The notes under the pieces were generated by a model, which saw only the letters and a program-made list of their open reading frames with translations, did no database searches and was not told where the DNA came from. From Niallia alba (GTDB lineage Bacteria; Bacillota; Bacilli; Bacillales; Cytobacillaceae): 64,000 nucleotides of DNA. The stretch covers positions 2,272,001 through 2,336,000 of the forward strand of contig NZ_JABBPK010000001.1 of NCBI RefSeq assembly GCF_012933555.1, read 5' to 3'. A program made the position numbers and the translations under genes. Numbering within the stretch: position 1 is the stretch's first letter; every line of letters begins with the position of its first letter. This document shows, in pieces, positions 12,962 through 51,912 of the stretch.

Positions 12962-14614
12962 ATGCAAAAAATTATAAATTGTTTTCGAGATCATAGTACA
13001 ACTAGATTAAAGTGGCTGTTTTTATTTACAATCTTTTTACTAATCATTTCTGCTATCACTGCATTAGTACCAATTAAATTTGTTGAGAAGATTGTTAACA
13101 GTCTTTCGGAAGAAGCAACAGCAAGTCAAATTGTCTATTTTGGCTGTCTTTATGTATTATTTCAAGTTATAAATTATTGTTTTCAAGCAATCTCCCGAAG
13201 TATGGCAGACTATGTACAATACAATGTTGGAAATAATCTACAGCTAAAACTTTTTCGAAAATTGATGTATGCAGAACTATTGGCATTAGAGAAAAAGAAT
13301 GTATTTGAAACATCCAATATTTTAATGGAAGATTGTACCTATGTTAATAATCAACTAATGAAGCCTGTTATCCAATCTGTTTTTGCCTTTACTTCTTTTT
13401 GTACTGCTTTGATTTACATGCTTACAATTAACATTCAGCTTACGTTTATAATGGTTCCATTAGGTATCATAACAGCTTTTGCTTCTCATGCAATTCAAAA
13501 AAGAACAGATCTCAATATTACCAACCAAAGAAAAGGATCGCATCAATTGTGGAAAGTTTTTCTGGAAGGGATTTCTGGTATCAAAACCATTCGAGTTTTT
13601 CAATATAAAGAACATTATACAACGAAAGTACAGGAGCGTAATAACAAATTAAAGAAGATTAATATAAAGCAAAGCTACATTGAAAATATTTCAGAAAATC
13701 TTATTGGTTTATTGTTCATGCTATCAATTGGAACAATCCTTATCGTATCTGCATTTATGGTACACCAACAACAGGTCTCAATTGGTAGTATGCTTGCGAT
13801 TTTATTATATAACCATATGCTGACAGACCCTTTTTTAGAAATTGTTGAGATTCGCAATAAAACAACAAAACTTCGCATTTCCCTTGACCGTATATACAGT
13901 ATTTTTTCCCTTAAAGAAGATAGTCTCCTAAATGCTGTGGCTGAATCAATTGACACAATGGAAGTTTCGGGACTATCTTTTGCTTATGAAAATAAAAATA
14001 TTATTGATAATCTGAGCTTTACTGTCACGAAACCAGCTAACATATGTATTATGGGACCTAGCGGATGTGGTAAGTCCACCTTAGCGAAGATTTTATCCAA
14101 GTTGTATGATACAGGGGAAAATAGCGTGGAATTTTATAAAGGTGGTCAATCAATCGCGAAGCCTCATGTCTCCTATTTAATGCAGGATGCCTATCTATTT
14201 GATTTATCAATCGAGGAAAATATCAAATTAGCCAATCCTAACATAACAAGAAAACAATTCAATGAATTGATATCATTAAGTTGTCTTGAAAATGTTTTAG
14301 AACGGCATCAGGATATCCCAATTGGTATGAATGGTAGCAGACTTTCTGGAGGAGAAAGAAAGAGAGTTCTTATTGCCCAAACGCTAGCTAAACCAAACTC
14401 TGATATCCTTCTTTTTGATGAGTTGTCTAGCTCATTGGATATAAGCACCGCAGAGAAAATCTTTCGGAATTTGGCTGATTTACGAATGAATAAAATATGC
14501 ATTTTCATTGAGCATTCAGATGCATATTTACATTATATGAACATTATATTTCATTACAAAGACGGTAATTTTCATAAAATTGACAATGGAACTATGTGTT
14601 TAGAAAAATCTTAA
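12962..14614 (+). CDS. ABC exporter, fused permease/ATPase
   Basis: Type I ABC half-exporter of 550 residues with membrane helices at about 17-300 and an ATPase domain: GPSGCGKST near residue 365, LSGGE near 460 and LLFDELSSSLD. The Walker B region has DEL in place of the usual DEP, so it is a divergent member. The substrate (lipid, peptide or drug) cannot be read from sequence. It is monocistronic, with an AGGAAG ribosome site, downstream of an AraC/GyrI-type regulator. Confidence 0.85.
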   Translation: MQKIINCFRDHSTTRLKWLFLFTIFLLIISAITALVPIKFVEKIVNSLSEEATASQIVYFGCLYVLFQVINYCFQAISRSMADYVQYNVGNNLQLKLFRKLMYAELLALEKKNVFETSNILMEDCTYVNNQLMKPVIQSVFAFTSFCTALIYMLTINIQLTFIMVPLGIITAFASHAIQKRTDLNITNQRKGSHQLWKVFLEGISGIKTIRVFQYKEHYTTKVQERNNKLKKINIKQSYIENISENLIGLLFMLSIGTILIVSAFMVHQQQVSIGSMLAILLYNHMLTDPFLEIVEIRNKTTKLRISLDRIYSIFSLKEDSLLNAVAESIDTMEVSGLSFAYENKNIIDNLSFTVTKPANICIMGPSGCGKSTLAKILSKLYDTGENSVEFYKGGQSIAKPHVSYLMQDAYLFDLSIEENIKLANPNITRKQFNELISLSCLENVLERHQDIPIGMNGSRLSGGERKRVLIAQTLAKPNSDILLFDELSSSLDISTAEKIFRNLADLRMNKICIFIEHSDAYLHYMNIIFHYKDGNFHKIDNGTMCLEKS

Positions 14615-27321: not shown

Positions 27322-27355
27322 AAATAAAAAATCCATCATTAATTAATGATGGATT
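27322..27355 (-). terminator. Terminator overlapping the end of the DUF3973 gene
   Basis: AATCCATCATTA and TAATGATGGATT form a perfect stem with almost no loop, followed on the minus strand by TTTTTATTTTG. Confidence 0.75.
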
Positions 27356-27533
27356 GACAGTAAGGACAAGTGATATCAGTTACCTGCTTAAATTCAATTC
27401 GTTTAAAGTCAGATCTTTTAAAGGTGGAATACGATTTATACTTCGATCCACACATACAATAATTTTTGTCCTTTACAACATGTCTAACACACGGTTTTTC
27501 ATCAGTTACTACAGTTGGGTAAAACATAACCAT
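27339..27533 (-). CDS. DUF3973-type small cysteine-rich protein under a c-di-GMP riboswitch
   Basis: A 64-residue protein with paired cysteines (CVRH, CMCG, CPYC near the C-terminus) that could form a zinc knuckle. The opening FYPTVVTDEKPCVRHVVKDK matches the DUF3973 family of Bacillaceae, whose function is unknown. The start is ATG 27533, six bases after AGAGG. A c-di-GMP-I riboswitch lies 75 bp upstream on the same strand, so expression should follow cyclic di-GMP levels. Confidence 0.7.
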   Translation of the reverse strand: MVMFYPTVVTDEKPCVRHVVKDKNYCMCGSKYKSYSTFKRSDFKRIEFKQVTDITCPYCQSIIN

Positions 27534-27607
27534 AACATTCCTCTTTTCTAATTTTATAAGGCAAATTAGACAGGAAGATTTTATTAACAAGATATACGAT
27601 ATAATCT

Positions 27608-27680
27608 TGGCAACCCGGCTGCCATAGCAGTTGCTTTAGGCCCGTGGCTTTGCGTCTTTTACTTTCGTAAAATTTGCCCA
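27608..27680 (-). promoter_or_regulatory. Cyclic di-GMP-I (GEMM-I) riboswitch
   Basis: On the minus strand the conserved GEMM-I core is present: GACGCAAAGCCACGGGCCTA, a GCAACTGC stem, then TATGGCAGCCGGGTTGCC, with the P1 helix formed by GGCAA (27674-27678 side) and TTGCC. These are signature residues of the class. The only gene downstream is the DUF3973 ORF. No clear intrinsic terminator follows, and CTAATTT/AAATTAG close to the ribosome site suggests translational control (inference). Confidence 0.92.
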
Positions 27681-27834
27681 AATTTAATTTTACCATGTTA
27701 TTCCGTTAATTCAAGGTATATAGTCATGATTTTTTTATATTTTTGTAAAAAAAGTGAGTTTATAGTCCTATTTATTGTCTAGTAAGCAGAAATGGAAAGG
27801 ATAAATAATGATTTTAATCCGCATGTTTGGGGAT

Positions 27835-28039
27835 ATCAGCCAAAAATTCGATATATCAGCCAAACGCAAAAGGAAATCAGCCAAAAATTCAATATATCAG
27901 CCAAACGCAAGAAGAAATCAGCCAAAAATTCAATATATCAGCCAAACGCAAGAAGAAATCAGCCAAAAATTCAATATATCAGCCAAACGCAAGAAGAAAT
28001 CAGCCAAAAATTCGATATATCAGCCAAACCAAACAATCA
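27835..28039. repeat. Array A: ten ATCAGCCAAA cores at alternating 20/21-bp spacing
   Basis: The core starts at 27835, 27855, 27876, 27896, 27917, 27937, 27958, 27978, 27999 and 28019: five 41-bp units, each with two cores. The two spacers alternate (AATTCAATAT-like, CGCAAGAAGAA-like) and are almost identical between units. All three forward frames are open only because the repeat lacks stops. A second array at 39764 has the same geometry. Even phasing near two helical turns suggests a protein-binding array. Confidence 0.9.
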
Positions 28040-28079
28040 TAAGAAAAAACTAAAAACTAAGGCGTACTCACTCCAGGAA

Positions 28080-28553
28080 TTACGCCGAAAGGGATTTCTT
28101 CTCCAGCTTAGATATTAGCTTATAATATTTTATTAAAATAAATAATAAGATCGGGTTAATGAGAAACGAGTAGGAGAGTCGCCACCAGCCATAATGAAAA
28201 TAACCCCATGGAGATGGGAGTAAAGTGAGCCACTCATATCCTACAATGATAAAATTCCATATGAAAATAAATAAAACTTTATGTAGAACACTCTTTTTCA
28301 TCGGATAAAGATTTAGGAAAATAATATTGACAGGTGGTACTAAAAATAAAATGTGAATAATGGATTCCCAATCCACTTCTGATTTACTGAAGTACCAGTA
28401 GGCATGGTATCCTACATCTACATATAAATCAAAAAGTTGCTGGAAAGAGATAGTGAATAGCCATATATGTAAAATTTGGTTCCATGTTAATTTCTTATTT
28501 GTTTTATAAGCAATAAAGTTAAATAAAAAGACAGAGAGCAATAATCCAATCAT
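28080..28553 (-). CDS. CBO0543-like small membrane protein
   Basis: A 157-residue protein with about five membrane helices, paralogous to 19590-20051: both carry FLVPPVNI, a P-rich turn and PWGYFHYGWW near the C-terminus. The start is ATG 28553, six bases after AAGGGG; an upstream in-frame TTG overlaps that site. It ends 40 bp from repeat array A. Its function is unknown. Confidence 0.6.
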   Translation of the reverse strand: MIGLLLSVFLFNFIAYKTNKKLTWNQILHIWLFTISFQQLFDLYVDVGYHAYWYFSKSEVDWESIIHILFLVPPVNIIFLNLYPMKKSVLHKVLFIFIWNFIIVGYEWLTLLPSPWGYFHYGWWRLSYSFLINPILLFILIKYYKLISKLEKKSLSA

Positions 28554-28625
28554 AGCAATCCCCTTAAGCAATCAGATAGTTATACTATTTACTTTTTTGA
28601 TTAGATTATCCTGTTTTTTAAATTT

Positions 28626-39763: not shown

Positions 39764-39917
39764 ATCAGCCGAAATAAGAATATATCAGCCAAAGTAACAA
39801 GGAAATCAGCCAAAAAAAGAATATATCAGCCAAAGTAACAAGGAAATCAGCCAAAAAATAAATATATCAGCCAAAGTAGCGAGGAAATCAGCCAAAAAAT
39901 AAATATATCAGCCAAAC
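39764..39917. repeat. Array B: eight ATCAGCC cores at alternating 20/21-bp spacing
   Basis: Cores start at 39764, 39784, 39805, 39825, 39846, 39866, 39887 and 39907: four 41-bp units. The core and alternating geometry equal those of array A at 27835, but the spacers differ (AATAAGAATAT-like and GTAACAAGGAA-like). Shared flanks are GGAA/GAA before one core and ATAT before the other. It lies about 95 bp upstream of the VOC gene. Confidence 0.9.
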
Positions 39918-50514: not shown

Positions 50515-51912
50515 TTATTTTGCCATTTCCCAGCATTGCATTAATTGGTGAATGCTTTCCTCGATTTTCTCTAATGGGATGCCTCCAAATCCTAACAGAA
50601 ATGTTGGATGCTTATATTCTATTGGTTTTAACAGATAATCGCTTAAAGGATAAATGGAGATATGGCTTTTTGCTGCGATGGCTTTTAACTCATTTTCACT
50701 TTTTTCCAGCGGAAGGGAAATTAAAATATGCATCCCGGCTTGATCTCCAGTGATGATGACTTCAGGATATTCTGTTTTAAAGATATAGGTCAGTTTATCA
50801 AGTTTCTTACGATAAATTTTCCGCATACGGTTTAAGTGCTTTGAAAAGTAACCGTCTCTCATGAAGCTGGCTACTATATGCTGGTCAAATCTTGGGACAG
50901 TTGCTGAATAATAACTGAACGTTTCCTTATATTTTTTCAGCAATGTGGAAGGCAAAAGAAAATAGGCCAATCGCAATGAGGGCATTAATGACTTGGTGAA
51001 CGTACTTAGATAAATCACCTTATCGTTTTGGTCCATCCCGTGTAAGGCGGGAATAGGTTTACCAGTGTAACGAAATTCGCTGTCGTAATCGTCTTCAATG
51101 ATATAGCGATTTTTACTTTTTGCTGCCCACTGCATTAACTGTGTTCTTCTTGTGGCGGAAAGAATTGCACCTGTCGGAAATTGATGGGAAGGCGTAATAT
51201 AGACCACATTCGCATTTGTTTTTTCAAGTTGTTCCACAATCAATCCGTCTTCATCAACTGGAATAGGGATCGCTTTATTTTGTAGCTGAATTCTCGGGCT
51301 TGCTGAATAGCCAGGATTTTCAAGGGCTAAGTTTGAATCATTTTCAAGCAACCTTAAAATCATGGGAAAGAGTTGTTCTGTTCCTGAACCAATCACAATT
51401 TGTTCCGGTTTACATATAATCCCACGCGATTGATATAGGTATTTGGCTATTTCAGTCCGTAAAGTGTATTCCCCTTGGGGTTCTCCAATCTGTAGCAACT
51501 CCTTCGACGGGGTATCATATAAAGTTTTTGCATACTTTCTCCACTGTGAGAAGGGAAAGGACTCTGTATCGATTTTTCCAGGATGAAAGTCAAACCGGAT
51601 CGTTTTTTTCTCTGTATCCTCCATAGGCAACTCAACATGTTCTGTTTCAATATAAGGTAATTCATTTATATCTTCTACAAAAAAACCAATCCGTGGTTTT
51701 GATACAATAAAGCCCTCTGCAACCAGTTGAGCATATGCCACTTCAATAGTTGTTTGGCTGATGTTTAAAAAATCGGCCAATTTTTTTTTGGAGGGGAGTT
51801 GCGTTCCAACTTCAATTTGTTGGCTCAAAATAGCGGCTTTGATACCCATATAAAGCTGCTCATACAAGGGTTTTGTTGCGTTTTTATTCAATTCAAACAT
51901 AAGCATATCCAT
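50515..51912 (-). CDS. MocR/PdxR-type GntR regulator with aminotransferase-like domain
   Basis: A 465-residue regulator: N-terminal GntR winged helix (LPSKKKLADFLNISQTTIEVAYAQL at about 35-60) fused to an aminotransferase fold I domain (from about 110), with the PLP-lysine in STFTKSLMPSLRLAY and an AlaAT-like NPGYSASP region. MocR proteins sense PLP or amino compounds. The start is ATG 51912 after GGAGGG; the longer frame has no site. It is divergent from an ECF S-component gene, which is the probable target. Confidence 0.88.
   Translation of the reverse strand: MDMLMFELNKNATKPLYEQLYMGIKAAILSQQIEVGTQLPSKKKLADFLNISQTTIEVAYAQLVAEGFIVSKPRIGFFVEDINELPYIETEHVELPMEDTEKKTIRFDFHPGKIDTESFPFSQWRKYAKTLYDTPSKELLQIGEPQGEYTLRTEIAKYLYQSRGIICKPEQIVIGSGTEQLFPMILRLLENDSNLALENPGYSASPRIQLQNKAIPIPVDEDGLIVEQLEKTNANVVYITPSHQFPTGAILSATRRTQLMQWAAKSKNRYIIEDDYDSEFRYTGKPIPALHGMDQNDKVIYLSTFTKSLMPSLRLAYFLLPSTLLKKYKETFSYYSATVPRFDQHIVASFMRDGYFSKHLNRMRKIYRKKLDKLTYIFKTEYPEVIITGDQAGMHILISLPLEKSENELKAIAAKSHISIYPLSDYLLKPIEYKHPTFLLGFGGIPLEKIEESIHQLMQCWEMAK

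Follow-up and report, generated by a model that had tools for sequence, protein, structure and literature searches.

Direct repeats that are spaced by about one or two helical turns and bound side by side are found in plasmid iterons and in parC/ParR arrays. Homing endonucleases and restriction systems combine a nuclease-fold protein with fast-changing specificity and with gain and decay of the gene. Repeats of constant length were reportedly treated already in a 2020 J. Bacteriol. paper by Subirana and Messeguer, which is said to be the predecessor of their later study. In the later study, these authors describe tandem repeats of constant length, of 20–21 nt and of 52 nt, in Bacillus (PMC8161180). 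According to the excerpted text, the 20–21 nt repeats are mostly non-coding, species-specific in sequence with a short conserved word, and patchy among species; the authors note that the unit corresponds to two helical turns and propose a protein that could polymerise on DNA only if the size of the repeats is constant, and the excerpt names no protein for these repeats (PMC8161180). Intergenic direct repeats with no known binder are also represented, as far as the excerpt goes, by the TAACTGA heptamers of Beggiatoaceae (PMC4679880).

The arrays described here share with the 20–21 nt Bacillus repeats, as excerpted, the unit length, a mostly non-coding location, a species-specific sequence with a short conserved word, several families per genome, and patchiness (PMC8161180). 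They go beyond that excerpt in having a gene-linked candidate partner, a putative recognition code, 20/21 alternation, arrays of distinct spacers, synteny, and a GC-skew flip. The TAACTGA repeats, in the part excerpted, differ in that distant lineages share one heptamer, which in one genome mostly precedes start codons directly (PMC4679880). In contrast to iterons and parC/ParR arrays, we find about 20 arrays dispersed over a chromosome, with a core private to each gene lineage, no rep or par neighbour seen, and neither an initiator gene with an origin nor a single site beside a partition operon; the arrays lie between ordinary genes or beside genes for NERD-HTH proteins (neighbours judged by eye), i.e., proteins that join a NERD domain (PF08378) to a zinc ribbon of four cysteines and to an HTH-like segment at the C-terminus. 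The comparison with a parC/centromere or iteron array that was drawn in an earlier, sequence-only reading is not supported: the arrays are dispersed rather than one per replicon, and the linked gene encodes a NERD-HTH protein, not Par or Rep. Unlike homing and restriction systems, this one shows no conserved partner gene among its gene neighbours, and the sites are multi-copy phased arrays. Other NERD proteins differ from the subfamily considered here, which adds the zinc ribbon and the HTH-like segment and travels with phased arrays.

The window, i.e., the whole stretch of 64,000 nucleotides of Niallia alba that was analyzed, contains two arrays (Table 1; G000 denotes the Niallia genome). Exact copies of ATCAGCCAAA in array 1 start at 27835, 27855, 27876, 27896, 27917, 27937, 27958, 27978, 27999, and 28019, with start-to-start gaps of 20, 21, 20, 21, 20, 21, 20, 21, and 20. 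The ten cores 20/21 bp apart claimed by the sequence-only reading are thus confirmed, by the exact copies at 27835-28028 as well as by shuffling and TRF: the window has 28 matches to ATCAGCCAAA with at most one mismatch against 7.95 expected, a count of at least 28 was reached in 0 of 100 shuffles, and TRF reports a 41-bp unit in 4.8 copies with 97% matches. The two alternating spacer types of that reading are likewise borne out in array 1 by their distinct tails, which, immediately before the next core, are ATAT for the 20-bp spacing and GAA/GGAA for the 21-bp spacing.

Table 1. Features of the two arrays in the window, with the linked candidate gene (window positions unless another coordinate system is given).
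Feature	Position	Strand	Remark
Array 1	27835..28028	+	Ten ATCAGCCAAA cores, 20/21-bp phase (41-bp unit)
Array 2	39764..39916	+	Eight cores, the first ATCAGCCGAA; phase as array 1, spacers differ
Left flank of array 1	27755..27834	.	G minus C = +11 per 80 bp
Right flank of array 1	28029..28108	.	G minus C = -8 per 80 bp
163-aa ORF	28080..28571	-	3′ end 51 bp from array 1; neighbour, not partner
Candidate binding-protein gene	G000 C1:4626437-4627366 (outside window)		Between two further ATCAGCC arrays

A coding repeat was rejected. ORFs of 108 and 81 aa run across array 1 and look spurious, because the unit is 41 bp long and their Pfam matches are below every cut-off. The earlier contention that array 1 is not a gene stands on the same two grounds, with the small correction that these two frames do cross it. 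Rfam gave no match at array 1 itself. A c-di-GMP-I riboswitch aptamer (Rfam RF01051, 81.4 bits) is located at 27606-27688 on the minus strand, upstream of a small minus-strand ORF (27339-27590), between that ORF and array 1. Isolated exact copies of ATCAGCCAAA outside the arrays are present at 14470-14479 (-) and 51753-51762 (-).

The pattern ATCAGCC-N13/14-ATCAGCC occurs as 364 pairs in the whole genome; its reversed counterpart does not occur. About 20 ATCAGCC arrays are dispersed in the genome, one of them at 2186731, and this is the outcome of the genome-wide search for 20/21-phased pairs that had been proposed as a check of the sequence-only reading. Nineteen of the arrays were read in detail. 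In the window and 16 array loci of G000, the latter selected by the 20/21 spacing, 354 of the 361 distances of at most 100 bp to the next core are 20 or 21 bp; the others are 18 (one), 41 (five), and 42 (one). The core is common to all 19 arrays read, and the spacers are private to each array. Alternation of 20 and 21 dominates in 17 of the 19, while L095 and L096 consist mostly of blocks of 21 or 20. When one consensus per array is compared, positions 0–8 are invariant and the middle of the spacer is nearly free; the usual tails are ATAT-like in the 20-bp subunit and GGAT/GGAA-like in the 21-bp subunit. The outer three cores have 41 mismatches at the left ends vs 15 at the right ends in G000; the corresponding numbers for G382 and G113 together are 14 and 14. 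Three words form arrays in this genome: ATCAGCC, ATTCGCG, and GCAAGTAA.

Spacer composition depends on the replication strand, which was set by dnaA at the start of C1, with ter taken between 2.66 and 3.93 Mb, where the skew changes sign. Spacer purine content is 0.65–0.86 in the 14 co-oriented arrays and 0.38–0.56 in the five anti-oriented ones. The split is clean; therefore, spacers drift with a strand bias while the core stays constant. A strict leading-strand orientation of the arrays was dropped, the number of co-oriented arrays being 14 of 19 if ter lies in that interval. The same interval of C1 (2.66-3.93 Mb, ~1.27 Mb) contains none of the listed ATCAGCC array ends, a count obtained with end patterns that can miss some.

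Another line of evidence comes from relatives, among which ATCAGCC arrays are found mainly in Niallia circulans NBRC 13626 and Bacillus sp. 522_BSPC. Thirteen comparisons, covering 11 of the 19 arrays, show an array at the corresponding gene junction, with its orientation unchanged, in one or the other of these genomes. In all 13, the core is identical and the 20/21 spacing is kept; the flanks are 74–94% identical, the spacers are different, and the copy numbers mostly differ (29 vs 6, 52 vs 8, 20 vs 4). This pattern suggests that selection acts on the core and the phase. The sequence-only reading would have been weakened by a lack of copies in relatives and by cores drifting as freely as spacers; on the contrary, two relatives keep the core and not the spacers.

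The gap between spoIID and spoIIQ was compared in 13 congeners. The five genomes with an array there are the closest by SpoIID (88–91% identity to G000), and in four of the five the array lies between the spoIID stop codon and the terminator. In G007, the 560 bp examined are array throughout. A terminator with no array follows spoIID in G010, G004, G011, G001, G006, and G005; in G002 (L139), a different repeat, of the CGCTTTCCGTGGGG type, occupies the position of the array in the relatives; and the G003 stretch ends too early for an array to be judged. The spoIID arrays of G008 (L129) and G009 (L132) have ATCAGCG, AAGAGCC, and ATGAGCC in phase in their left part and ATCAGCC in their right part. 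They look as if the word had changed, with the newer units on the right.

Similar arrays with other words are widespread in the order. A search with three cores (at most 3 mismatches) gave matches in 85 of 397 genomes and in 50 of 136 genera; the reversed pattern matched in 13 genomes, in two of which (G120 and G319) it did so almost as often as the forward one. Many of the matches are whole arrays with a word of their own (ATCAGCG, ATCGGCC, ATTAGCC, ATCAACC, ATCTGCC), and others are single chance matches. The follow-up set comprised 24 of 30 loci, from which repeat loci of the same arrays and two chance-like matches in G401 had been dropped. At loci of other genera that were selected by this spacing, 112 of 130 distances to the next core are 20 or 21 bp, and the remainder are 40–42 bp. 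The own-word arrays of these genera often have unrepeated spacers: 22 of 25 and 14 of 15 units are distinct in two arrays of G382, as are 8 of 8 and 14 of 14 in G113, and the phase holds in both genomes. CRISPR was rejected, as the sequence-only reading had claimed: spacers repeat within the Niallia arrays, and where they vary elsewhere they are just 13–14 bp long. Among the array neighbours inspected, no gene was recognised as cas. The inverted hairpin repeats of REP/BIME elements were not seen either, the cores of the arrays examined being direct repeats.

The candidate partner of the arrays was found beside them: two Niallia arrays enclose the gene for a 317-aa protein (Table 1). A tblastn search with this protein matched six loci, and four of these belong to other genera, where the neighbouring arrays have different cores; the loci searched were mostly array loci, so this result serves as a lead only. 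The NERD domain was matched in four proteins at E-values from 5.5e-21 to 3.8e-13 (75.6, 59.1, 62.8, and 50.4 bits vs a cut-off of 22.1). At the catalytic positions, D...(E/D)xK, each of the 102 aligned proteins has Asp, Glu/Asp, and Lys, respectively. It should be noted that the NERD assignment rests on Pfam and that of the HTH on a sequence pattern, because structure prediction of one protein sequence returned a mean pLDDT of 37; a search for a solved structural relative gave no convincing one. A NERD-HTH profile matched in 323 of the 397 genomes at E ≤0.001, often several times in each, and not all of these genomes necessarily have arrays. All five proteins in the profile came from array loci, so the top-scoring loci may favour array-flanked subfamilies.

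Linkage of gene and array was assessed by looking for 8-mers of whatever sequence that recur four or more times at 20/21 bp. Such a chain is present within ~1.5 kb at 64 of the first 99 profile-found loci, six of which were counted even though they have no full gene at 1e-10; 45 of these arrays are upstream, 33 of them no more than 200 bp away from the profile match, and 19 are downstream. In a fresh set, the chain was present at 29 of 40 loci. Control loci gave 1 of 20 and 0 of 21, and twelve periods without 20 or 21 gave 0–1 of 99. Overall, 93 of 139 loci (59 first loci and 80 more from the listed profile matches) have an array, mostly with its own core, vs 1 of 41 controls (Fisher 8e-15), and 46 have none by this detector. 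Periods of 19/20 and 21/22 were positive at 10 and 16 of 59 loci, i.e., for arrays built of 20 only or 21 only. Apart from NERD, the most frequent neighbour family recurs at 8 of 109 loci, all eight from one genus; next come a transporter, at seven loci, and a SpoIIQ-like gene, at five. This tally of neighbours is also where a cognate methyltransferase gene, as in restriction-modification, was looked for. The SpoIIQ-like gene, named by resemblance, lies beside NERD-HTH at L254, L312, L376, L389, and L390; together with the ATCAGCC array (L106) in the spoIID-spoIIQ gap, this is perhaps a favoured site.

All 20 genomes that have at least three three-core matches and few or no reversed ones have a NERD-HTH profile match (81% overall). 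Within Niallia, the match is at E 1e-145 or better in all five genomes with ATCAGCC arrays; among the other eight congeners, the best are 1.6e-119 (G003), 1.9e-102 (G002), and 7.8e-86 (G010), the rest being 1e-5 or worse or without a match. G007, G008, G009, G003, and G002 have copies that are broken or split. The candidate binding partner of the arrays is, as the best reading of these comparisons, the NERD-HTH protein family.

If each lineage of the gene has its own word, a word read beside the gene should recur elsewhere in the genome. TTACTRTCC, read beside a NERD-HTH gene, forms 109, 71, 26, and 6 pairs in G103, G060, G097, and G137, four genomes of three genera chosen for having the word beside the gene; there are no pairs in 16 other genomes and none with the reversed control, and the arrays include loci away from the gene. 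In the same way, the word beside the NERD-HTH gene in G426 and G107 is the word of the arrays that the order search found elsewhere in these genomes. Triples of ATTCGC were found in five of 14 genomes, namely G003, G012, G000, G007, and G413. The word adjoins the gene in G003, G413, and G012; G000 has an apparent counterpart of the linked gene of G012, and G007 has a broken copy beside its array. The genomes without triples are G009, with a copy that contains one stop; G008, with a split copy; G002 and G010, which have other paralogues; and five congeners whose best match, if any, is at 1e-5 or worse.

A further line of evidence is covariation between the protein and the core. Cores were aligned by a motif model that took no account of the proteins, and the alignment gave the family pattern TGRCNNATA; in this register the Niallia core reads TGGCTGAT, the complement of ATCAGCCA. 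Of 64 arrays, 62 were aligned (short or ambiguous proteins being left out and ambiguous letters removed); the covariation set contained 51 arrays below 80% identity (52 after realignment), and the hold-out 27 of 29. Among 2319 column pairs, the top-ranking one joins helix+7 to core base 1, and the one in third place joins helix+2 to core base 5; the second-ranking pair falls outside the HTH. Pairs above z 4 make up 2.2% in the HTH vs 0.7–0.8% elsewhere. Lys at helix+7 goes with G at core base 1 in 25 of 25 arrays, and other residues do so in 6 of 23. At helix+2, Arg goes with C at base 5 (10/16), Ile/Val with A (8/10), and Ala/Ser/Thr/Pro/Glu/Asn with G (19/22).

In the hold-out, Lys+7 again goes with G (8/10 vs 5/14, p 0.04) and Arg+2 with C (3/5 vs 1/22, p 0.013); Ile/Val+2 with A (4/6 vs 5/21, p 0.07) and small or acidic residues at +2 with G (6/11 vs 6/16, p 0.31) are not significant there. 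Base 5 was predicted correctly in 13 of 22 hold-out cases (p 0.14 vs the commonest base, 0.012 vs one in three); by a split on register score made afterwards, 10 of 11 were correct at a score of at least 9.5 and 3 of 11 below it. Close pairs of which 29 were usable fall into 10 whose residues at +2 differ in class and 19 whose residues do not; base 5 differs in seven of the former and in four of the latter (p 0.015), and the same test for helix+7 was not significant (p 0.21). The proteins of L248 and L249 (79% identical) have His and Asp at helix+3 and T and G at core 4, and also differ by Pro/Asn at the start of the helix. The helix residues covary with the core bases, more weakly in the hold-out and partly through shared ancestry.

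Gene context was called for 57 of 59 arrays: 20 lie between convergent, 36 between tandem, and one between divergent genes, vs 10, 56, and 16, respectively, of the control gaps of at least 160 bp, taken from G000 only. In tandem settings, 17 arrays are on the gene strand and 19 opposite. Half of the 76 gene 3′ ends that face an array are within ~100 bp of it. The term “intergenic” is only approximate here, because six arrays fall inside a longer ORF by the crude ORF caller used (L113, L124 twice, L125, L213, L189).

GC skew flips at most arrays, from G-rich on the left to C-rich on the right, within ~150 bp and independently of gene direction. The left flank is positive in 17 of 19 arrays of G000 and in 12 of 16 and 16 of 24 arrays of the second and third sets; the right flank is negative in 18 of 19, 16 of 16, and 22 of 24. 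Control gaps, from G000 only, show little flip. The shift is from C to G rather than plain C to T. Counts of the Chi-like AGCGG in the flanks are 3 vs 0 in G000, 9 vs 2 in G382, and 12 vs 6 in the 16 arrays of other genera, including G382.

Taken together, we consider it very probable that the arrays are binding sites of proteins with a NERD domain, a zinc ribbon, and an HTH, each of which reads a core of its own. The phased arrays (about 20 in this genome), the retention of the core in synteny, and the candidate partner lend support to the protein-binding array proposed by the sequence-only reading. Each protein would read its asymmetric core of 7–9 bp by a recognition helix placed in the major groove. 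Cores repeated every 20/21 bp, i.e., every two turns, would line up adjacent molecules along a single face of the DNA helix, where binding along the array is probably cooperative; a protein filament is something we infer from the spacing only. One array is usually beside the protein's own gene, more often upstream of it, and this suggests autoregulation, which likely tunes expression. Other arrays would be sites scattered between genes, as a rule near 3′ ends and in either orientation. Cores would change together with the recognition helix, and gene lineages would for this reason have private words. The nuclease domain probably acts, because its catalytic residues are kept in 102 of 102 proteins. 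Cutting at the arrays followed by repair would fit the fast turnover of copy number, the skew flip, and the broken copies; a parked or structural protein, or a roadblock at gene ends, would fit the positions and the strand neutrality.

Among the alternatives, the least probable in our opinion is a neutral minisatellite, in which repeats arise by tandem slippage and neither unit length nor core has a meaning. It would account for the strong variation in copy number between syntenic arrays (29 vs 6, 52 vs 8, 20 vs 4), for the near-identity of units within Niallia arrays, and for the left part of the G008/G009 spoIID array, where even mutated cores are duplicated. Nevertheless, it is the spacers that vary between arrays while core and phase stay, spacer purine content tracks the replication strand with the core unchanged, nearly all spacers in G382 and G113 are distinct with the phase kept, and gene linkage and covariation are left unexplained. 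An RNA element, i.e., arrays acting as transcribed repeats in 3′ UTRs or small RNAs, a possibility that PMC8161180 discusses, is highly improbable as well: the near-equal numbers of tandem arrays on either strand and the strict two-turn spacing, a property of B-DNA, argue against it, as do the Rfam result at array 1 and the flanks, which pair with their own partners no better than with swapped ones (a stem between flanks was rejected at permutation p 0.44 to 0.76). In its favour are the four Niallia genomes with the array between the spoIID stop codon and the terminator, and the transcription of 52-nt repeats in B. coagulans mentioned in the excerpted text (PMC8161180).

A relation by neighbourhood only, with NERD-HTH genes and arrays sharing hypervariable regions and another protein binding, seems to us improbable. 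Both partners do turn over, and 46 of 139 genes have no detected array; against this stand the rarity of any non-NERD neighbour (at most 8 of 109 loci, in one genus), the gene lineages with their own cores, the cores that predict arrays elsewhere, and the covariation of recognition-helix columns with the core. The last alternative keeps the same binding pair and makes it selfish and homing-like: NERD would cut at the arrays, and repair would expand, homogenise, and spread them. The fully kept catalytic residues, the broken or split copies in five genomes, the two arrays flanking the Niallia gene, and a skew flip such as strand-specific exposure during repeated cutting might leave are consistent with it, whereas the reach of the skew (~150 bp), its C-to-G character, and the stability of syntenic arrays across species are not what it would lead one to expect. 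We hold it to be possible, though on the unlikely side. Extended to the whole order, it would become a self-propagating system in which an active nuclease assembles on its private array and cuts or nicks it, repair expands and homogenises arrays and seeds them at gene ends, and the pair drifts to new words by a simple helix code; bacteria would then have their own version of the hotspot or homing systems that evolve fast. In this full form we regard it as doubtful.

The binding of NERD-HTH proteins to private arrays, if it holds, would provide many natural protein-word pairs and with them a readable DNA recognition code that comes with a nuclease fold. A large class of bacterial satellites would be explained as well, and so would spurious repeat ORFs and breaks in assemblies. 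Repeats that keep their length and change their sequence have been known from the literature since 2020–2021 with neither a partner nor a function, and the gene family now gives a testable pairing. The repeat class alone was already known; the NERD-HTH partner, the private words, and the recognition code are new among the matches listed from open-licence PMC papers, none of which links NERD proteins with 20–21 nt repeats. No system known to us pairs a protein of nuclease fold with phased arrays that are private to it.

Carriage by mobile elements was considered and rejected. The 33 IMG/VR stretches that matched have equal spacing (21/21, one 20/20), none of them alternating, and several are runs of heptamers or decamers. 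For plasmids and phages there was no blastn match, a weak negative, since blastn cannot detect arrays with different spacers.

Some arrays carry additional words. Most of those at L108-L120 (G382, G113) have a form of TCGACAnnnTTCgaCAAAttTCGCC past the last core, made of TGTCGA words at 10-bp steps on the opposite strand and absent from the Niallia arrays; we take these right ends to resemble tandem Spo0A boxes. Extra TTGGCGCTC words at similar steps lie beside the ATCAGCG arrays of G120 (L124, L125), a genome that also gave many matches to the reversed control pattern. Finally, ATCAGCC arrays seem to break assemblies, because several draft contigs of N. circulans NBRC 13626 (L034, L043, L072) appear to end inside them.
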